Part shown: one piece after another, positions 17,171 through 29,572 of the stretch
Position numbering within the stretch: the stretch's first letter is position 1
Layout: each line of letters begins with the position of its first letter
Source of the DNA: Pedobacter sp. BAL39
Lineage (GTDB): Bacteria > Bacteroidota > Bacteroidia > Sphingobacteriales > Sphingobacteriaceae
DNA: 64,000 bases
Direction of reading: 5' to 3'
Assembly: GCF_000170795.1 (NCBI RefSeq)
Contig: NZ_ABCM01000003.1
Span: 248,001 to 312,000 of the forward strand
Notes under the pieces: generated by a model
What the model saw: the letters and a program-made list of their open reading frames with translations, nothing else
Database searches by the model: none
What the model was told of the DNA's origin: nothing
Program-made: the position numbers and the translations under genes

Positions 17171-18184
17171 ATGAGCAACAATGGATCTCCACTTCGTGCA
17201 CAAATGCCAACCCAAGGGTGGAAACAGTTCCTGGCTGCACGAACCAGAATGCTCGCTGCTTATGATCTTGCGAGGGACTTAGAAAACAACAAGCTGGTAA
17301 AGACCAGGCACGGCCGTGTAGCAGAGGCCGAATTTAGAAAGTGGCTGAGCGAATTCCTGCCAAAGCGATATGCCGTTGCCTCTGGTTATATCATTTCTCC
17401 CGGCATTTCGAGTTCCGAGCACATGGTGCATTATGATGTGATTATATATGATCAGTTGGAATCTCCAGTGCTATGGGTAGAGGAAAATCCGGATTCTTCC
17501 GGGCAGGGAAAATCGCTTGCAATTCCTGTGGAATATGTCCACGCGGTATTCGAAGTAAAATCCGCTTTTAATAAGAAGTCATCCAAAGAAGCTGTTGAAC
17601 AGCTGTCAAAGTTAAAGCCATTATTGGCTAGACTAGATCCTCCGAACAGTCGCAGCGAGCTGCATCTCCCTGCGAATTTTTTCTGCGCCACGGTGTTCTT
17701 TGAGCTCCGAAAAGAGCATGAGAAGGATTTTGCTGCAATGGACGAGCTGGTCGAAGCCACGATGCTAAGGGGATTCTATGGGGGAATTATACTTCGCGCT
17801 GATACGCTCGATAAATATTACAGCGGGAAAATATACTTCAGAAACGAAAACATTGACACTGGGCCCAACAATAGTTCATCATTATCTTTTTGGACAACAT
17901 CGAAATGCCTTAAATATAAAGATGATGCCTATTTCAGTCTGTTATTGACATTCTGGGAACAGCATTTTTCGGAATTTGCATTCGACATCATTGCGCTTTT
18001 GAAGCGAACCTATCACCCCAATGCTCTATCCAGCCTATATTGTATGGGCTCAACCGCGATGGAAAATGGCAGCTGTGTAGAAACGAGGTGTGCTGATCCA
18101 GAGGCTGTTAAAATGTATCAAAAGGAAACTGCAGCAATTCTAAGCGCAAAGGGATTTGTGGGTTTTGAACCGTCCGACCTGTAA
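17171..18184 (+). CDS. DUF6602 family protein (putative PD-(D/E)xK-like nuclease)
   Basis: 337 residues. The N-terminal half follows the DUF6602 pattern: an acidic helix GRVAEAEFRKWLSEFLPKRY, then a glycine turn ASGYII, then HYDVIIYDQ with D89, and VEYVHAVFEVKSAF with E128 and K130. The E-helix, D, and E-x-K on successive strands is the geometry of restriction-endonuclease-like nucleases. The C-terminal half is unassigned and contains two cysteines near the end. It is the first gene of the probable defence island and is convergent with the TIR gene, 254 bp away. Enzymatic activity is inferred from motif order only. Confidence 0.65.
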   Translation: MSNNGSPLRAQMPTQGWKQFLAARTRMLAAYDLARDLENNKLVKTRHGRVAEAEFRKWLSEFLPKRYAVASGYIISPGISSSEHMVHYDVIIYDQLESPVLWVEENPDSSGQGKSLAIPVEYVHAVFEVKSAFNKKSSKEAVEQLSKLKPLLARLDPPNSRSELHLPANFFCATVFFELRKEHEKDFAAMDELVEATMLRGFYGGIILRADTLDKYYSGKIYFRNENIDTGPNNSSSLSFWTTSKCLKYKDDAYFSLLLTFWEQHFSEFAFDIIALLKRTYHPNALSSLYCMGSTAMENGSCVETRCADPEAVKMYQKETAAILSAKGFVGFEPSDL

Positions 18185-18438: not shown

Positions 18439-19395
18439 CTAAGCTTTTGAATATCCTGACGCCGCAATGTATTCCAAAAATTCTTCGACTTTTTTGTTGA
18501 AATGCGTTACGTTTATATCTCCAAAAAATGCTTTTCTATCCTGATACAGATTTAATAAGGAATCTCTGTTGGAAATTTTAATGCCCTTATTTACTACTTT
18601 TACCCAAGCTATATCTTTCGAAGAGGCCGGAGGCAATAATATAGGCAAAAACATGAGCTCATCCATTAAACACCATGCTGCTCCTTCTTCGTTTAGGCAA
18701 ACCCTACTTATTAGATAGTCAGGACTGACAAATTGAATGAAAAGACCCGTCTCATCTTTTAAAAATGTTCGGAGATCTTCTGGAATATTTATCCCTCCGG
18801 CTATTCCGTGATTTTCTTCACTAGTAAATTTTATTTTTGCTAGATCGAAGTTTAGCCCACTATTCAAAATAATGTCACGAAATTTTTCGACGACCTCCCG
18901 GTCCTTGGAGGTATGGCTGAGGAAAATTCCTTGCTTTGTCGTAGTGAGTTTATTGTCCACTAATAACGACGAATTGGTGATGATCTGCAGTTTTGTTTGC
19001 GGTGCAAATGTATTCGCAATCTTATCGTGGTAGTTGTCGTAAGAATATACGTCTAAAGTACTATTACCATCCTGTTCGTAGATTTCTCTTTTCGGGGCTG
19101 AAGAGATTAAATGGAACCTTAACCCAGGAAAGTACCTGGTGATGCTAGAATTTTTAAAGGTATCGTATCCCTTATTGTTTTCGCTATGGTGTAAATGAAC
19201 TAGAAATAAAAAATTCTGTTCATCATCAGCATCACTAATAGTTGTTTTAAATACTTCAAGCCTTTCAATTAATTTTACATCCTGAAACAGATCTATGCCG
19301 ATTTTCCTTTTAGTTAGGGCATTATCAAAATTATTTTTTTCGTCCCAAAATAACAAAATAGTCTTTCCTAATATTTCATAATCTGTTGACGTCAT
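18439..19395 (-). CDS. TIR-domain protein with N-terminal receiver-like region
   Basis: 318 residues. Residues about 155-300 form a TIR domain: GIFLSHTSKDREVVEKF (strand A/box 1), FTSEENHGIAGGINIPEDL, then FIQFVSPDYLISRVCLNEEG with the S-x-x-Y-x-x-S-x-x-C-x-x-E signature and E236/E237 in the place of the NADase catalytic Glu. Residues about 10-105 look like a receiver-like alpha/beta domain (KTILLFWDEKN, FLFLVHLHHSE, FHLISSAPKRE) lacking a clear phospho-Asp set. Its ATG overlaps the stop of the 1596-residue gene by 4 bp (ATGA), so they are translationally coupled. Inferred role: effector that cleaves NAD or a related nucleotide when triggered by its partner. Confidence 0.8.
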   Translation of the reverse strand: MTSTDYEILGKTILLFWDEKNNFDNALTKRKIGIDLFQDVKLIERLEVFKTTISDADDEQNFLFLVHLHHSENNKGYDTFKNSSITRYFPGLRFHLISSAPKREIYEQDGNSTLDVYSYDNYHDKIANTFAPQTKLQIITNSSLLVDNKLTTTKQGIFLSHTSKDREVVEKFRDIILNSGLNFDLAKIKFTSEENHGIAGGINIPEDLRTFLKDETGLFIQFVSPDYLISRVCLNEEGAAWCLMDELMFLPILLPPASSKDIAWVKVVNKGIKISNRDSLLNLYQDRKAFFGDINVTHFNKKVEEFLEYIAASGYSKA

Positions 19396-22300
19396 AATTT
19401 TATAAATTTAATTTCATGTGAATAAATCCCATTTGAACCAGTTGCTTTATGAAACATCTGGATGGGGAAATCGTTTAGGTTATTTAGTCTCATCAAGCCT
19501 TTTCCTCCGCCTTTTAGAACCACGCCTTTTTTAATTGAGTTCTGAATTTTGAAAGTTAAAAACTCTTTAGATTCAGTCCATTCGATTATTATTTTTTTAC
19601 TTAGATCTGCATGTCTCAGATTTTCCTTCAACTCGGAAAATATTACATGGTGCAAATATACCTTAGGAAAAGCTACAGTAACTGGTGGAGGTGAATTTGT
19701 CTCGATATTTATTTTTTGATCTGTTTCTTTGATTTGTATTAAAAACGCATCAAAGTCCTCTTTGATATTTGGAGTTGTAATGGAATTGAATATTTTCGAA
19801 TATTCGGAGTTGTTCATAATGAATTTATCGAAAAGCTTGTCAAGTTTTGAACTAATAATAGCGACGTCTTCAAACTTCCCGTTGTGAATCCAATCGCCCA
19901 ATTGTGCCAATAAAACTCTAAGCGATATGGTGATGTTCTCCAGGTTGTTGTAGGTTTTTTCTTTATATGGTAAAAAGAAATTAGGGTAGCGACTAGAAAA
20001 GTTCAACAAGTCTTCTATAAACTCTGAAATTGGATCCCATGCGTTCTGAATGATCACTATCTCCTCTTCGTAATCTTCTTTATTAATTTTTTTCTTGTTT
20101 AAGACTTTTAATTGAGTATTGATGATCTGCTTATCATTATAGATATATTCATTGTGAGAGGCGTCATCAAGTATTCTTGCGTAATTGCTCTTAACTTTGG
20201 TGAGTAAATCGTCAAAACTGGATTCAACAAAAGGCAGTGTGGATATAAATGCCCTAAACATCTTCAGCTGGGACTTTTCCTGCCCTAATTGTGAATTTTC
20301 AATGGCAGCTTCTATCAATATTTTTATACGCCCGCCTAGTTTTTTCTCTTTCAGTTGATTAACGTCAATTGGAATAAACTTTAGCAATTTTAAAAAGAAG
20401 TAATTCAAATCCGAATAACTGCTGTGGTAGGTTTTAATCAGGAATATAAACCTGTTCACCGTCATCATTTCTATAAAATACTTGCCCTGGAAAAAGATAA
20501 ACAACAAATGGAAGAAGTTTTTATTACTCCATTTATAAAAAAGTGATTTCTTAGCGATTCTTGGGGAATCTGGTATGTTCGGATTTCCAAATATTATTGT
20601 TGTAATAAACGATTCTAACCTTTCTGCTAAATCGGGAAGGACGCTCCTTATTTTTTCGTATAGATAAGGTTCATGCAGAAAAACTGCGCAGATGAGTTCA
20701 ATTGTCTTATATCCCTCTGGATTGTCAACTTTAGTTTCATATTTCACGATAAAGTCATCAAAAAAATCAAAGTACTCTTTAAAATACCTGTAGGTAGCAA
20801 TTTTGCCTACCTGATCCTTCACTAAAATGAGCTCTTTAATGATACTGCTGTCATCCCAGTTCTTCAATAGATATTTATTATTTGGAGAGTCGATTGTTTT
20901 TAATGAAAGTTCGTCCAGAATTTTTCTTGCTTCTTCTTTAATCTTGTTTGGGGTATTGGGAATATTTACAAGTTCATCTAGCCACTCATTCTCCTTAACA
21001 ACCGGGCTTTCTTCTATGTGGTAGGTGGGTATGTGCCAATGACAGGCAAAAATGGTTTTTACTTTTACCTCTGTATTGCTTCCCATCATTGTATTGAGTC
21101 GCGAGAAAAATTCCATTTTATGATCACTCAATCTACCTATTATCGATAGCACTAAAATTTCTTTTACATCCAACAAAGCTATTTCTTCAATCATCTGGAT
21201 GATGGAATCTCCAGTACAAGAACCATCATCAAAAATCATGACCACCTTCTGGTGTGACAAGGTTTTTAGAAATTTAGGTGTATCGGGAAAGCGCCAACCT
21301 TCATTTGTCTGAAACCGTTCCAGTTCGTAAATGTCTATGCTGTTATTCTTTAAAACGTCAACTGTTAAAATGTCATTGTCTATATTAGTTGCTGCTGAAC
21401 CCTTTGGATAAAAGACCATATTTAGCCTTTTTAGGAATTTTTGATCAATTCTTTCGAAAATTACTTTTAGTATATCTTTACAGTTGTCTCTGTCTTTTAG
21501 AAGGTTTTTTAAATCGAAGAAATATGGATGGATTAGGTTATTAAATTTGAAGTAGCCTGTTTTGATACAGTCGTCAGGGATCAATTCAATAAATTCCACA
21601 TTTTCGAGCAAGATTGAATCCTTTTGATGGCTACCCTTGACGGACAACTCTATAGGTGTGTTTGTATACGGATTTATTCTAACAACTTTCAAACTTCTGT
21701 CCTTCAACTTTTGTCGAAGGCCAGCTCGTTTAAGCTTCTTTATTGGCCTTTGCACCAATGCAGTCAGCTTTTTATCCAATTGTGGTTTGTCGTACTTCTC
21801 ACTCTCGAATTCAGGATCGCGTGTATCAACAACTACAGCCACGTGTGATAAATTAGCTTCTTTTTCGTTTAGATACCGATCAAGGAAATTGGCGAGATAA
21901 CCGGTCGAGATTACGTCGCAGATCAAAATAAACTCATCCCCTGGCTTTATGTTGTCCTGAAAGGATTGTTCAGAAACAAAAGAATGATGATTCGAAACAA
22001 CAACGACATTTTTTCCTTTGATAAGATTGTTATCTACCAGTGATTTTACAATCTTTTGGCTATTAGAAGAAATGCATATAAATTTTATCTCTGGATTTTT
22101 TATAATGTGGTAGGAAATGATTTCGAAGATAGCGTTCGAAATGTATTCGCAGTTATTTGTGTCACCGAGCATGTTAGACATCTGCACATACTGATATTGG
22201 TAATAATTTCCGCTGCAGAGAAACACGCTTCCGTTGATTTTTAAGGTAGATTCGCCAACCAAATTTTCTAGTTCTAGTTGTTTAGATTTCTCTACTCTAT

Positions 22301-24182
22301 CTTGGTAATTTGAGACTATATTACTGTTTGACGTTTTCTTGGCCTTATCATACTGCTTTTGAATTTCTTCTCTGTTTATAAAGGATTTTAGGTTGCCCTG
22401 GCTATCATAATAGTTGATATGCCCAATAATATCATCCGGATATTGAAAATCTCCCTTCCTTAAGCTATGATCATCCAGTAACAATTCATTCAGCTTGGAT
22501 ATATCTGCGTCTGAATATACCCCTAGCCAGAAAATTGTAAGCTCGCTTTCTACATTGCTAAGATATATGAATGGTGTTGGATGAATCTTATATTTCCGAT
22601 CGACTTCACTGAGGTATTTGATCTCTTCTCTAATGTTGATCAAAAACTCCAATGGGGGCGGGTTAATGATTACAACATTCTTTAACAGATTTATCGAATA
22701 GTCAGAAATTAGGAAGAAGATGATTTTCTTGCTGATCCTTTCGTCTATCTGGTAACCTTCGAAATCAATATAGATCAGCGTATTGTCCGGAAATGAAATA
22801 ATTTTATTTAATAGCAGATCAAACAGATCGTCATAGATTCTCTTTTTTAAATCCTCTCCCTGTAGTTGTTTTTGAATTTGGAATACGCTTACATATTCTA
22901 TTTTCTTATTGAAGTATGCATACTGGTCAACATTCAGTAATTGTTTAATTGCAGTTCCTTCAATTTGTACACTGGAATGGCGTTCAGGGACATATATGCT
23001 GATTAAAGTTCCTGGAAAAAATTCTTCTCCGTTTCCAAACACTTCTATAGCTTCCTCAAAAGATTTTCTATCCGAAAAATCGAATAGTATTTTGCCATAG
23101 TTACTTCTGGCCACCAACAACCCCTCGAACCGTCTAACAATAGTCAGCAGGTCAAATAATCCTCTGGGTACGTTGATTTTTTCTAGATATTTTTTACTAA
23201 TTGGCTGCTTCGATGAATTGGGTTCAAACGCATACCTCAATACTTTTGTATCGTGGGAAGCATTTACCAACTTTCCTTCATCAGACGTCTTTTCTGCTTT
23301 TAAATACTGAGCATTGAGTGTCGTAGGAATCCCTAGACCAAAATCTAAAAAAGACAATTGAAGTACAGACTGGTTCTTCCACTTTCCAGTCTTTTTGTCC
23401 CTATAGAAGTTTTTACCCTCGTCAATCATTTCATCGTTGAAATTCTTATCCAGCATGGACTGAACTTCTCCTTTATTAAAGGATTTTTCATTGAATTTGG
23501 TCTTCAACGAAAGACTCATAAATGCATACTCTTTTTTGGAATTGAAAAATGACTTTTGAAAATGGTCAAGAAAATTTTCATATAACTCCTTTGTTATTAT
23601 CGAGCTGAGCGTTTGGTTTTCAAACGGAAGAGCACAGTTGTTTAAGCTTAGGATATCATTGGTCGCGTCGTTTAAAAGATAAATATCTGATAATAGTTCT
23701 GAGATTTTACGATCACTATAGCCTTTAACAAAATCGAGGGTGATGAAGGGCGTTACACCATATCTGTCATAAATTTCGGACTCTTCCGACGACAATTTAA
23801 ATTCTTTTTTAAAACGCTGTATTTGATTGCCATCTAGGTCAAAGTACTTCGCATAGTTTTGATTGGGTACTATTTCATATATTTTCCAAACATCCCAAAT
23901 TTGGACGAATTGTTTGGCTTTGCGTTTTGAGACCTTCGGAATTTTTCCAACCCCTAAAAAATGCACGAAAAAAGGAATGTCATTTTCAATCAGATAATGC
24001 ATGAGTCCAGTTAGTATGACAAGTTCCTGATTTGAAACCCATTCAACTTCAGATAGATCAAAAATATATTTGGTATATTTTTTAGATGTATAAGCTTTAA
24101 AAAAGTCAGCTACAATTCGATCAATATGTCTTTCTGTTATTTTATAGCCGAATACAATAGCGAATTCATCAGATTTTGGCAT
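19392..24182 (-). CDS. Giant STAS / GHKL ATPase / double PRTase / GHKL protein, partner of TIR effector
   Basis: 1596 residues. Residues 7-78 resemble a STAS/MlaB-like fold (YIFDLSEVEWVSNQELVILT). Residues 195-400 are a GHKL ATPase: N-box ELYENFLDH (199-207), LSFLDFGLGIP with D280, NVPRGLFDL and FPGTLISIYVP. A first phosphoribosyltransferase-like domain covers about 650-790 with PRPP-loop-like DEFILICDVISTGYLANF (749-766). A second covers about 910-1050 with KVVMIFDDGSCTGDSI (979-994). A long helical stretch follows. Residues 1505-1596 form a second GHKL-like domain (HHVIFSELKENLRHA; GGGKGLMRLN). The gene is visibly more AT-rich than its neighbours and rich in Lys, Ile and Asn, suggesting transfer. 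It overlaps the TIR gene by 4 bp. Role inferred: sensor and switch of the pair. Confidence 0.75.
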   Translation of the reverse strand: MPKSDEFAIVFGYKITERHIDRIVADFFKAYTSKKYTKYIFDLSEVEWVSNQELVILTGLMHYLIENDIPFFVHFLGVGKIPKVSKRKAKQFVQIWDVWKIYEIVPNQNYAKYFDLDGNQIQRFKKEFKLSSEESEIYDRYGVTPFITLDFVKGYSDRKISELLSDIYLLNDATNDILSLNNCALPFENQTLSSIITKELYENFLDHFQKSFFNSKKEYAFMSLSLKTKFNEKSFNKGEVQSMLDKNFNDEMIDEGKNFYRDKKTGKWKNQSVLQLSFLDFGLGIPTTLNAQYLKAEKTSDEGKLVNASHDTKVLRYAFEPNSSKQPISKKYLEKINVPRGLFDLLTIVRRFEGLLVARSNYGKILFDFSDRKSFEEAIEVFGNGEEFFPGTLISIYVPERHSSVQIEGTAIKQLLNVDQYAYFNKKIEYVSVFQIQKQLQGEDLKKRIYDDLFDLLLNKIISFPDNTLIYIDFEGYQIDERISKKIIFFLISDYSINLLKNVVIINPPPLEFLINIREEIKYLSEVDRKYKIHPTPFIYLSNVESELTIFWLGVYSDADISKLNELLLDDHSLRKGDFQYPDDIIGHINYYDSQGNLKSFINREEIQKQYDKAKKTSNSNIVSNYQDRVEKSKQLELENLVGESTLKINGSVFLCSGNYYQYQYVQMSNMLGDTNNCEYISNAIFEIISYHIIKNPEIKFICISSNSQKIVKSLVDNNLIKGKNVVVVSNHHSFVSEQSFQDNIKPGDEFILICDVISTGYLANFLDRYLNEKEANLSHVAVVVDTRDPEFESEKYDKPQLDKKLTALVQRPIKKLKRAGLRQKLKDRSLKVVRINPYTNTPIELSVKGSHQKDSILLENVEFIELIPDDCIKTGYFKFNNLIHPYFFDLKNLLKDRDNCKDILKVIFERIDQKFLKRLNMVFYPKGSAATNIDNDILTVDVLKNNSIDIYELERFQTNEGWRFPDTPKFLKTLSHQKVVMIFDDGSCTGDSIIQMIEEIALLDVKEILVLSIIGRLSDHKMEFFSRLNTMMGSNTEVKVKTIFACHWHIPTYHIEESPVVKENEWLDELVNIPNTPNKIKEEARKILDELSLKTIDSPNNKYLLKNWDDSSIIKELILVKDQVGKIATYRYFKEYFDFFDDFIVKYETKVDNPEGYKTIELICAVFLHEPYLYEKIRSVLPDLAERLESFITTIIFGNPNIPDSPRIAKKSLFYKWSNKNFFHLLFIFFQGKYFIEMMTVNRFIFLIKTYHSSYSDLNYFFLKLLKFIPIDVNQLKEKKLGGRIKILIEAAIENSQLGQEKSQLKMFRAFISTLPFVESSFDDLLTKVKSNYARILDDASHNEYIYNDKQIINTQLKVLNKKKINKEDYEEEIVIIQNAWDPISEFIEDLLNFSSRYPNFFLPYKEKTYNNLENITISLRVLLAQLGDWIHNGKFEDVAIISSKLDKLFDKFIMNNSEYSKIFNSITTPNIKEDFDAFLIQIKETDQKINIETNSPPPVTVAFPKVYLHHVIFSELKENLRHADLSKKIIIEWTESKEFLTFKIQNSIKKGVVLKGGGKGLMRLNNLNDFPIQMFHKATGSNGIYSHEIKFIKL

Positions 24183-24722: not shown

Positions 24723-25697
24723 ATGGCAGCGGAGCAAATTAAAAGTCTAATTAAATCGTTTGGCGAGGACGACGAAGAACGTTTTTTTTCGTCTGCCATT
24801 CAAATTGCAGCTGCTGAGGCTCGAAAAGGGCACGTCAATATTGCGCAGGAACTAAAGGCACTGATTGACAAGGCGAAACAAAACCGTTCCCATCATGCAT
24901 TTGATAAATCCGCTACTGTTCATCTTTCGCAGCCGAAAAGGGAATTACTTGAGCTGATCGATATTTTTCAGCCCCAGTCCACGTTGAAAGACATGGTACT
25001 TGACCTTGAGTTAAAGCAAACGCTGGACCAACTGATCAATGAGCAAAAGAAAGCGGAAATACTCCGGCAATATAACCTTAGTCCACAGAGGAAATTGCTC
25101 CTTATGGGCCCTCCCGGATGTGGTAAGACGATGACTGCGGAGGCTATCGCAGGCGAGTTGGGTATCCCTATTTTTATCGTACGCTTAGATGGTATCATGT
25201 CAAAATTCATGGGTGAATCAATTGTGAAACTCAGGTTGATCTTTGACTCCATGGTTAATCAGCGCGCTGTTTATTTATTTGATGAATTCGATTCTATTGG
25301 ATCCCATCGTCATTTAGGTCAGGATGTGGGCGAAGTGAAGCGAGTACTGAACAGCTTTTTGATCAATATTGAAAAAGACAACAGCAACAGTATCATAATT
25401 GCCGCTACAAATCTGCCTGAATCCTTGGATAAAGCACTTTTCAGACGGTTTGATGAAATTATCACATACCCGCGGCCAGATAAAAAAGGTATTAAAAAAA
25501 TACTAAAGAAGCTGACCCAGAACTATCATTTTGATCAAGAGGTCAATCTTGAAACTTTAGCGGATGCTAGCCTTGGCTTAAACTACTCAGATATTGTTAA
25601 GGCGACTGAGGAAGCTATTAAGTATATGATACTTAGTAGTGAAAATTCCCTATCTTTAGAAGTATTGACTAAAACGCTTCACAAAAAAAAGATCTAA
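24723..25697 (+). CDS. AAA+ ATPase of the FtsH/SpoVK type
   Basis: 324 residues. A short N-terminal helical region (1-80) is followed by a classic AAA module: Walker A GPPGCGKT (129-136), Walker B VYLFDEFD (183-190) with D187/E188, sensor-1 Asn in AATNLP (230), and paired arginines ALFRRFDE (241-242) in the second region of homology. The LDGIMSKFMGES stretch is the pore-loop/MSKF(M/V)GES element of substrate-threading AAA proteins. Its TAA is followed at once by the ATG of the subtilase gene, so the two are one operon. Role inferred: unfoldase or regulator that feeds or controls the protease. Confidence 0.85.
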   Translation: MAAEQIKSLIKSFGEDDEERFFSSAIQIAAAEARKGHVNIAQELKALIDKAKQNRSHHAFDKSATVHLSQPKRELLELIDIFQPQSTLKDMVLDLELKQTLDQLINEQKKAEILRQYNLSPQRKLLLMGPPGCGKTMTAEAIAGELGIPIFIVRLDGIMSKFMGESIVKLRLIFDSMVNQRAVYLFDEFDSIGSHRHLGQDVGEVKRVLNSFLINIEKDNSNSIIIAATNLPESLDKALFRRFDEIITYPRPDKKGIKKILKKLTQNYHFDQEVNLETLADASLGLNYSDIVKATEEAIKYMILSSENSLSLEVLTKTLHKKKI

Positions 25698-28229
25698 ATG
25701 CCTCCAATCTTTAATTTGCCGCATCTCAAAATTGAGGGGCATTCAACGGATGTTAATTACAATTATCCAAAAACGGTTGTTGTTCCATTTCGCGTTGCCG
25801 TCAGAAACCGGGCGATTCATGGTGCCCGTATTAAGGAACAGCTGTCTCAGATACAGGAACGGTTCGAGCAACTTCGGGCCGAAGATCTTCCGGATGGAAT
25901 TATCCATGAGGACGCCATTTACGTCGAATTCTACTCTGAATGGGATTTCGGTCTTAGTTTTTCAAGCCTGCATAATGAAGCACGCCGCCCCAAATATCAG
26001 ATTTTAAAGATTGTTGAAGAAAGTACTGCTAATGATGAGCACCAACGTTACAGGGTGCTAGTTATGCTGAAAGAGGGTGGTATTTCTCATTTTATCAAAG
26101 CTGTAGATGAGTATCTCAACGCAGAGAAAGATGTTAGTAAAAAGGATCAAGATGGAAATGTGGTGGCGACCAATCCTAAAAACAATAAATTAATCGCCAA
26201 TATAACAGCCATCCAGCTAGCCACCATTCAGGAATTCTGGACAGATGCGCCGCAGTATCCTTTTCCAGATTTGGATGAAGTGAGATGGTGGGAAGTCTGG
26301 TTCCGTAAATCAGCTGATGAAGAAGCCCGCTTGGTACAAATCACACAAAATTTAAATGCGGTAGGTGCTCAGCTTGGACAGTCGGTGATTAATTTTCGGG
26401 AGCATACCGTACGGCTGGTAAAGGCAACAGCTCGTCAGCTTTCTCGTTCGCTGGTGCTGCTCGACAACCTTGCTGAACTCCGTAAACCTCAGGAAACAGC
26501 GGACTGCTTTAGTAGAGAAGGTATCCGCGGCCGCGATAACTGGATCAATGAACTTTTACAAAGAACCGAGGTGGCAGTCGATGATGATTCAACACTCATC
26601 TGTCTTTTGGACAGTGGAGTGAATCACCATCATGCATTGATCAGTCCATTTCTACCCGATCATCGCCTTTATGCTTATAATAATGCGTGGGGAACGCATG
26701 ACACTTGGGGTAGTGAAGGACATGGGACCGGCATGGCTGCGCTGGCTTTATATGGTGACCTTACCGACGCATTGGATTCCCGGAACAGCATTGTCATCAG
26801 GCATGGCTTGGAATCTTTCAAGGTTAAACAATATGGAGTAGAAAACGATCCAGAACTATATGGGGCCATTACGCAAATGGCTGTTGACCTTCCGGTGATC
26901 ATTGACGGGCAGCGGAGAAGGGTATTTTGCTTAAGCATTACTGATGCTGCAACTGTGTTTAGAGGTAGGCCTTCTTCCTGGTCTTCCACCATAGATAAGC
27001 TTTGTTTTGGCAATTCCGAACTGGCTGCTGAACAGCAGCTTTTTATCATTAGCGGCGGAAATGTCAGCACAGCAAAGCATGCAGATTACTATAGTTTGAA
27101 TGATACAACATCTGTTCACGATCCGGCGCAGGCGTACAATGCCATAAGTGTAGGTAGTTATACGAGCATGGACCGGTTTGATCCTAGGGAAAGACCCGGC
27201 TGGCGTATTTTGGCGGCCCGTGGTGCGATGGCTCCATCCAATTCAACTTCCTTGCTATTTGAAAGTCAATGGCCCAATAAACCGGATATTGTAATGGAGG
27301 GAGGAAATATGATTACTGATGGTGCTGACATCGCTCACCACCCTACGCTGCAAATGTTGACAGCGAGCAAGCGCCATCTGGACCAGCAGTTCCAGCTATT
27401 TGGGGACACCAGTGGAGCTGCAGCTTTAACTGCAAAAATGGCCGCTGAAATCTGGACAGCATATCCAAACCTATGGCCTGAAACCATAAGGGCATTGATC
27501 ATCCATTCTGCACAATACACCGGCGAAATGACCGGTGGATTTGATCCGGCAGAAATGACCAGTACCCAGAAACGGAATTTATTAAGAAGATTTGGCTATG
27601 GAGTGCCAAACTTGGAACGGGCTTTATATTCGGCATCAAATGCTCTTAATTTGATCATGGAAAGGACGATTCAGCCTTATCATCAGTATGCTAACGATAC
27701 TCCCACCTACAACAATTATCATTTGTACCAACTTCCCTGGCCGGCCGAAGTTTTACTTGAGGAACTTGCCAATAGAAATGTCACTCTAACTATTACTCTA
27801 TCTTATTTCATTGACCCTAATCCGGGTGCAAGGATATATAAAAACAATTTTCAATACCATTCCCATTCACTCGATTTTTCAATCATTAAACCGGCAGAAG
27901 ATCTGGAGGATTTCAAAAAGCGGATTTCTAAAGCTGAAGAAGAAGAGGAAACAGAGGAGGTTGTAAAACGGCCCGGAGAGATCTGGTCGCTTAAACAAGC
28001 TAGGTCAAGAGGTTCTTTAAAAAAAGATTTCATTACGATTTCCGGTGCGGATTTGTCTACACGCAATGTGATTGCTATTTATCCGCGCAGCGGTTGGTAT
28101 AAAACCAGGAAAAAACTCGGGCTAGCAAGTCAGTCCGTAAGATACAGCCTGATCGTATCGATTGAAAGTGATCAGCTGACCTCTGATATTTATGTGCCCG
28201 TGATGAACCAAATCGCTATACCCAATTAA
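25698..28229 (+). CDS. Subtilisin-like (S8) serine protease partnered with AAA ATPase
   Basis: 843 residues, cytosolic (no signal peptide). The catalytic domain has the triad in order: D305 in LICLLDSGVNHH, H342 in GSEGHGTGMAALA, S572 in GDTSGAAALTAKMAAE, with the oxyanion Asn in IISGGNVS (N455). About 290 residues precede the domain, with no propeptide-like cleavage signal, and about 240 residues follow it. The stop of the ATPase gene touches its start codon. Paired AAA/subtilase genes are found near other defence genes, which fits this island; a role in phage defence is plausible but is inferred. Confidence 0.85.
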   Translation: MPPIFNLPHLKIEGHSTDVNYNYPKTVVVPFRVAVRNRAIHGARIKEQLSQIQERFEQLRAEDLPDGIIHEDAIYVEFYSEWDFGLSFSSLHNEARRPKYQILKIVEESTANDEHQRYRVLVMLKEGGISHFIKAVDEYLNAEKDVSKKDQDGNVVATNPKNNKLIANITAIQLATIQEFWTDAPQYPFPDLDEVRWWEVWFRKSADEEARLVQITQNLNAVGAQLGQSVINFREHTVRLVKATARQLSRSLVLLDNLAELRKPQETADCFSREGIRGRDNWINELLQRTEVAVDDDSTLICLLDSGVNHHHALISPFLPDHRLYAYNNAWGTHDTWGSEGHGTGMAALALYGDLTDALDSRNSIVIRHGLESFKVKQYGVENDPELYGAITQMAVDLPVIIDGQRRRVFCLSITDAATVFRGRPSSWSSTIDKLCFGNSELAAEQQLFIISGGNVSTAKHADYYSLNDTTSVHDPAQAYNAISVGSYTSMDRFDPRERPGWRILAARGAMAPSNSTSLLFESQWPNKPDIVMEGGNMITDGADIAHHPTLQMLTASKRHLDQQFQLFGDTSGAAALTAKMAAEIWTAYPNLWPETIRALIIHSAQYTGEMTGGFDPAEMTSTQKRNLLRRFGYGVPNLERALYSASNALNLIMERTIQPYHQYANDTPTYNNYHLYQLPWPAEVLLEELANRNVTLTITLSYFIDPNPGARIYKNNFQYHSHSLDFSIIKPAEDLEDFKKRISKAEEEEETEEVVKRPGEIWSLKQARSRGSLKKDFITISGADLSTRNVIAIYPRSGWYKTRKKLGLASQSVRYSLIVSIESDQLTSDIYVPVMNQIAIPN

Positions 28230-28492: not shown

Positions 28493-29086
28493 ATGGAAAG
28501 TATAGGGAAACAGATAGAAAGTGCTATCAGGAGAAAGCCAAGGGGAACTTTGTTTTTTCCTGATGATTTTAGTAAATATGGTTCTTCTGATGCGGTCAGG
28601 AAAGCTTTAGAACGTCTTACAGATAGAGAGCAGATTGTTCGTGTAGCTCAGGGTATTTATGTCAGGCCTGAAGAAAGTAAGTATCTTGGTGCGGTTATGC
28701 CCTCGGCTGAAGCTGTTGCCGATGCGATTGCTAAGAGAGATAAAATTCGTACGGTTCCTAGCGGGGTTTATGCGCTGAATGCTTTAGGGCTAAGCACACA
28801 GATCCCCATGAAAATTGTGCTGCTGACCGATGGATCTCCCCGCGAAATGAAAATCGGGCGAAGAACAATTACGTTTAAGAAAACAACTCCGGCTAACTTA
28901 CTGGCAAAGGGGAAAATCAGCCGCCTAGTGATCCAGGCTTTAAAAGAAATGGGAAACGGAAAAGTAAGTGTAGAGGATGAGCATAAAATTCTTGACTTGT
29001 TAAGGAAAGAGGATCAGAAAGATCTGGAGCATGATATTTCCCTGGCACCGGTATGGATACGGAAAATAATGAAAAAGGCATTGTAG
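28493..29086 (+). CDS. DUF6088 / AbiEi-like antitoxin
   Basis: 197 residues. The N-terminal winged helix reads GTLFFPDDFSKYGSSDAVRK, then LERLTDREQIVRVAQGIYVRP, the usual AbiEi/DUF6088 DNA-binding domain. The C-terminal half (SPREMKIGRRTITFKKTTPA, ending in a helix) is the antitoxin region. Two operator-like dyads stand 18 bp upstream. The toxin gene two bases downstream has lost its catalytic core, so this antitoxin now appears to stand without a working partner. Confidence 0.8.
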   Translation: MESIGKQIESAIRRKPRGTLFFPDDFSKYGSSDAVRKALERLTDREQIVRVAQGIYVRPEESKYLGAVMPSAEAVADAIAKRDKIRTVPSGVYALNALGLSTQIPMKIVLLTDGSPREMKIGRRTITFKKTTPANLLAKGKISRLVIQALKEMGNGKVSVEDEHKILDLLRKEDQKDLEHDISLAPVWIRKIMKKAL

Positions 29087-29088
29087 TA

Positions 29089-29572
29089 ATGAATCAATTT
29101 TATCAGATAGAATCCGCGGAAAAAGCGGCCATTTTTAATGCGATCAGTAATCAAACAGGAATGCCGGCTTTTGCTGTTGAAAATGCATGAAGAATTTAGC
29201 CGGCCAGCTGAGAAAATCCGCGTTGATCGCTTGAGCCGTCATATGTATGATGTTTTTCATTTGTCAAAACATGATGGAGTTTTGTCTGCCCTGGAGAACC
29301 AGGATTTATATGAGACTATTGTAGCTCACCGATATGAATATGCAAAAATCGGAGGGGTGGATTATAACCAGCATAATCCGCTTACTTTAAATCCTGTGCC
29401 ACATCCTGATTTTATTAAAGCTTGGGAAGCCGATTACAACAAGATGAAAAGCGAAATGATTTATGAGCAGAATCCGCCCAGCTTTCAGGATTTAGTAGAG
29501 AATATTGAACAATTGAAAATAAAATTATCTTCAGTTTCATGGAAATTTAGTCTTCACTTCGGTGATAAATAG
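29089..29572 (+). pseudogene. AbiEii-like toxin with large internal deletion
   Basis: The gene begins at ATG 29089 and reads FNAISNQTGMPAFAVEN, the N-terminus of AbiEii/AbiGii nucleotidyltransferases, then stops at 29190. In another frame from about 29170 the ending resumes: LLLKMHEEFSRPAEKIRVDR, then LSRHMYDVFHLS, and continues to 29572 in the normal C-terminal way. The whole central nucleotidyltransferase core, roughly 170 residues of a usual 300-340, is missing. A frame starting at 29138 could make a short C-terminal peptide, but it would have no catalytic site. Confidence 0.75.

Follow-up and report, generated by a model that had tools for sequence, protein, structure and literature searches.

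Pairs of an AAA ATPase and an S8 family protease have been described in several bacterial settings. On Salmonella genomic island 1, the sgiAT module, which by its description combines both protein families in the same order as the pair studied here, acts as a toxin/antitoxin system in which the ATPase serves as antitoxin to the protease toxin, and SgiT always adjoins SgiA; it differs from the present pair in being carried on a gammaproteobacterial integrative element (PMC5006074). Stability roles have been published for this module and for ietAS on pTiC58 (PMC5006074). In mycoplasmas, ATPase/protease pairs show toxin/antitoxin behaviour (PMC8562856), and one of them, TA132/133, is described as an operon of an AAA ATPase antitoxin and an S8 protease toxin (PMC6755753, PMC8562856), located, unlike our pair, on a Mollicute chromosome. 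JCVI-syn3A tolerates deletion of the protease alone or of both genes, but is not viable when only the ATPase is deleted (PMC6755753). Furthermore, ietAS has been listed among anti-phage systems in a 2023 survey, according to which its mechanism was still to be described (PMC9958689), and a review counts it among the systems that are escaped via changes in functional phage proteins (PMC10286901).

We analysed a stretch of 64,000 nucleotides from Pedobacter sp. BAL39 (hereafter the window) that contains such a pair on the plus strand. The first gene, ietA (24723..25697, plus strand), encodes a 324-aa AAA+ ATPase, the presumed antitoxin, recognised by the PADLOC IetA model, the Pfam AAA family and its invariant residues. 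The second gene, ietS (25698..28229, plus strand), encodes an 843-aa S8 subtilase, the presumed toxin, recognised by the PADLOC IetS model, Pfam Peptidase_S8, its invariant D/H/N/S residues, an AlphaFold2 model and Foldseek. The TAA stop codon of ietA (25695-25697) is immediately followed by the ATG of ietS at 25698, and the gap at this junction (25695..25700, plus strand) is zero, exactly as the original prediction had described it; the tight coupling is read directly from the sequence and is kept in relatives. We confirmed that the ATPase-protease pair seen earlier is real and was described correctly. The two genes presumably form one operon, and a scan for promoters and terminators found signals no more than in shuffled sequences.

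On its sequence, we assign the pair to IetAS, a known bacterial toxin-antitoxin and anti-phage family, of which it is a divergent branch. The ATPase matches the PADLOC IetA model PDLC04232 (E=1.6e-73, 4-315 of 330 covered) and the protease matches the IetS model PDLC02198 (E=1.3e-34), both judged by model E-value; a further PADLOC model, PDLC04233, aligns with IetS from residue 198 on, that is, also outside the catalytic core. Pfam recognises AAA in IetA (E=2.9e-30) and Peptidase_S8 in IetS (E=4e-63). The best family matches in NCBIfam are “anti-phage ATPase IteA” for IetA and “anti-phage peptidase IteS” for IetS, with scores below the equivalog cut-offs for both (192.8 versus 510 bits and 48.6 versus 900 bits, respectively), and the pair is therefore not an equivalog by NCBI's rule, the IteA/IteS equivalog being a narrower class than IetAS. 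Because these best matches fall so far under the cut-offs, we place the pair on a divergent branch of IetAS and consider its function to be extrapolated from distant relatives. To our knowledge, this Bacteroidota branch has no experimentally tested member. In PHROGs, the two proteins fall in phrog_3757 and phrog_3964, both of which lack a functional annotation.

In its architecture, the pair shares with IetAS (ietA/ietS of pTiC58, PADLOC IetAS, NCBIfam IteA/IteS) the order of an IetA-model ATPase directly followed by an IetS-model S8 peptidase, the tight coupling, a cytosolic protease, intact catalytic residues and a mobile and defence context. The original prediction had suggested that defence surveys may already list such pairs, and PADLOC, NCBIfam and the published survey all lead to IetAS. 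This identity also bears out its view that the two genes form a module of defence type whose S8 protease is cytosolic.

The active sites of both proteins are intact. In IetA, the Walker A motif GPPGCGKT contains K135 and the Walker B motif YLFDEFD contains D187 and E188, and these three residues, together with N230, R241 and R242, are invariant across the 31 homologues aligned. The catalytic core of IetS (residues ~294-645; 26577..27632, plus strand) carries D305, H342 (in HGT), N455 (in SGGN) and S572 (in GDTSGA), all of them likewise invariant in 31 aligned homologues. Accordingly, the Walker motifs and the complete D-H-N-S set reported from the sequence earlier are upheld, and the residue numbers given at that time for K135 and S572 are both correct. 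We found no N-terminal hydrophobic or transmembrane-like stretch in IetS, the maximum Kyte-Doolittle mean over 19 residues being 0.87 across the whole protease, and we therefore agree with the earlier view that the protease has no signal peptide.

As modelled with AlphaFold2 (mean pLDDT 81.8, pTM 0.72), IetS consists of an alpha/beta N-terminal region (~60-292), a catalytic domain (~295-645) and a strand-rich C-terminal domain (~650-843). A sequence search of the PDB with IetS returned no match. With the model as query, the top Foldseek hit was ProN-Tk-SP (3afg, E=4.7e-17), and further subtilases, Kex2 and furin among them, came next. The Foldseek output comes without aligned query residues; from the model, we infer that the segment preceding the catalytic domain (~195-292), which occupies the position of a propeptide in subtilases, may act as a lid.

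Next, we examined how the pair is distributed. A scan of genome contigs for relatives gave 18 loci. Rather than being spread evenly over housekeeping loci, homologues occur next to defence genes and are sparse, as expected of accessory genes: among 301 genomes of the family, 40 have any match and 14, our own included, have a close and nearly full-length homologue, and a close-range match to IetA is present in 7 of 201 genomes of the order. IetS homologues are found in 492 plasmid records, of which 342 are for plasmids typed as conjugative, and the plasmid homologues in other phyla align over their full length at ~35% identity. Both plasmids that we inspected, Rhizobium p42d and Haliscomenobacter pHALHY01, encode an ATP-binding protein and then an S8 peptidase, with a type I restriction gene near the pair in pHALHY01. 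The scan of viral contigs for IetS relatives found none, and only four phage records matched IetA with at least 80% query coverage, the remainder resembling generic AAA domains.

The coupling of the two genes is conserved. In the relatives the ATPase lies directly upstream of the protease with gaps of -38 to +36 nt and a single exception at +60 (30 other aligned pairs, four of which have a gap of exactly zero), and because these pairs are also tight we conclude that the coupling is not due to chance. Furthermore, the distance matrices of IetA and IetS are strongly correlated (31 homologous pairs, Mantel r=0.93, 0/5000 permutations), and the two proteins co-evolve. Two genomes with an apparently lone IetA also contain an overlapping, divergent IetS. 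Two other loci (L041, 94-3366; L044, 166-3304) depart from the usual operon: here, a distant IetS-like peptidase and an IetA-like ATPase are encoded on opposite strands and stand tail-to-tail. In Chitinophaga sp. E66 (L018, 9009-12513), ietAS is broken into several reading frames, which reflects either a pseudogene or an assembly error.

In the window, ietAS is flanked on one side by a minus-strand TIR/phosphoribosyltransferase (PRTase) gene pair (18439-24182) and on the other by an AbiE locus (28493-29572) with an intact AbiEi antitoxin gene and an AbiEii remnant. Of AbiEii, approximately the first 34 codons remain, as does the C-terminal part in a different frame; the nucleotidyltransferase core is gone. 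Beyond the TIR/PRTase pair, a DUF6602 gene with a PD-(D/E)xK-like product (17171-18184; PADLOC PD_DExK E=4e-19, NucC-like E=1e-16) likely encodes a further nuclease effector of the same block. Alignment with genomes of the same genus starts sharply at ~29,673 in several relatives, ~100 bp past the end of the AbiEii remnant, and because of this abrupt start of synteny we place the defence genes in a strain-variable block. A search of the 240 kb upstream did not reveal the left edge of this block. The window contains no tRNA, and no integrase is evident among the flanking ORFs.

The neighbours of the other IetAS pairs (129 proteins) matched 226 PADLOC models at E<=1e-10, with strong matches to type I restriction, DpdE, ZorD, KwaB, retron, SduA and others, and Pfam adds HSDR_N (3), ResIII (3) and AbiH (2). 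A control of 129 proteins from elsewhere in related genomes matched 123 models, and only modest weight can be put on this difference because the control set itself held defence genes (Mza, Nsn, RT). The neighbourhood survey, with restriction, retron, Kiwa-like, Zorya-like and AbiH genes near the pairs at a modest enrichment over a control that is not clean, supports the placement of IetAS in a defence island without proving it.

We consider it probable (roughly 0.75) that the window copy works as a protease toxin restrained by its ATPase. Free IetS, a cytosolic subtilisin-like protease, would be toxic, and IetA, encoded just before it, would hold it inactive, most likely via an ATP-dependent complex. 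Loss or disturbance of IetA, by phage infection or by loss of the carrying mobile element, would be the trigger, upon which the released IetS would cut cell or phage proteins and growth would stop before the phage cycle completes. The toxicity of the protease alone and its neutralisation by the ATPase are carried over from the published relatives and would apply here by analogy; for the window copy, we infer its activity as well as the inhibitory complex, trigger and substrate.

It is also possible that the pair mainly stabilises a mobile element, by post-segregational killing or the like, with phage defence as a by-product. The published stability roles of ietAS and sgiAT, the many homologues on plasmids, most of them conjugative, and the break of same-genus synteny shortly after the adjacent AbiE remnant are all in line with such a role; against it, the window copy lies on a 420-kb contig beside other defence modules, with neither a tRNA nor an evident integrase around it.

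The original prediction envisaged instead a threading ATPase that feeds the protease. Accordingly, IetA would be an unfoldase passing recognised phage proteins into IetS, as a two-part AAA+ protease directed against the invader. The intact Walker motifs and arginine residues of IetA, its secondary NCBIfam matches (FtsH, proteasome-activating nucleotidase and CDC48) and the co-evolution of both proteins would fit this, but such matches are expected from any AAA domain, and the relatives need the ATPase to prevent killing by the protease, which is the reverse of a feeder role. Compartmental AAA+ proteases of the FtsH, Lon or HslUV type also differ in that the peptidase in the window is an S8 subtilase, outside the known AAA+-partnered classes, and no compartmental AAA+ protease that uses an S8 peptidase is known to us. 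We therefore regard threading as unlikely. We give quite a low chance to the more elaborate version, an S8-based AAA+ machine fed by IetA and turned on phage or self proteins upon infection, in which residues ~195-292 of IetS would be a permanent internal lid opened or closed by IetA. Because the genetics of the relatives assign the toxin role to the protease and the antitoxin role to the ATPase, we favour restraint of IetS by IetA, which by this analogy appears likelier than feeding.

The original prediction had pointed to the TIR unit beside ietAS as context for an abortive or protein-degrading defence module. The TIR/PRTase unit and ietAS are divergent and ~540 bp apart, which could suit a single composite system, but neither the TIR nor the PRTase protein has a detectable homologue in any of the 30 other IetAS neighbourhoods, and around eight PRTase loci we found, besides one weak AAA match, no homologue of IetA or IetS. 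A composite system is thus very improbable and we rejected it; the supposed link to the TIR unit lacks support. Chance adjacency of a housekeeping ATPase and a peptidase, for which we found no supporting evidence, is refuted by the sparse distribution, the conserved coupling and the co-evolution.

The neighbouring unit is itself a two-gene operon on the minus strand (18439-24182), composed of a giant gene and a TIR-ended partner with a 4-bp overlap. It is rarer than ietAS, with four nearly full-length homologues, our own included, in 401 genomes of the order. The giant protein (1596 aa) has invariant GHKL-like motifs (E199-N203-H207, D280-G282-G284 and R340-G341-L342) and two phosphoribosyltransferase-type motifs (DVISTG near 756 and DDGSCTGDS near 985). 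For the model of its first 1050 residues (pLDDT 68.8), Foldseek found proteins of the PRTase fold (4paw, E=7.3e-06; orotate phosphoribosyltransferases), and PADLOC had no match for the giant.

In all ten relatives that we read (L101-L108, L149 and L150), the giant gene is directly followed by a partner of 412-487 aa. The C-terminal domain of the partner, TIR in the window, is a PNP/UDP phosphorylase by Pfam in six relatives, PNP-like by eye in L107, L149 and L150, and another domain in L106; the N-terminal 158 residues are homologous to those in the window in L101 (44%) and L103 (27%). From these sequences, the unit appears to combine a single sensor with interchangeable effectors, and the giant with its partner is a candidate new defence system. 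In one genome (G698; L150, 943-4184), a relative of the giant has as neighbours an HsdS-like gene and a protein similar to a Wadjet component, both judged by eye, which is consistent with a defence island.

For a defence specialist, the ietAS pair alone would be no surprise, and the neighbouring GHKL/phosphoribosyltransferase giant with its partner is more novel. The pair extends IetAS by a divergent Bacteroidota branch, and its invariant positions, catalytic and non-catalytic, provide precise targets for solving the mechanism of IetAS.
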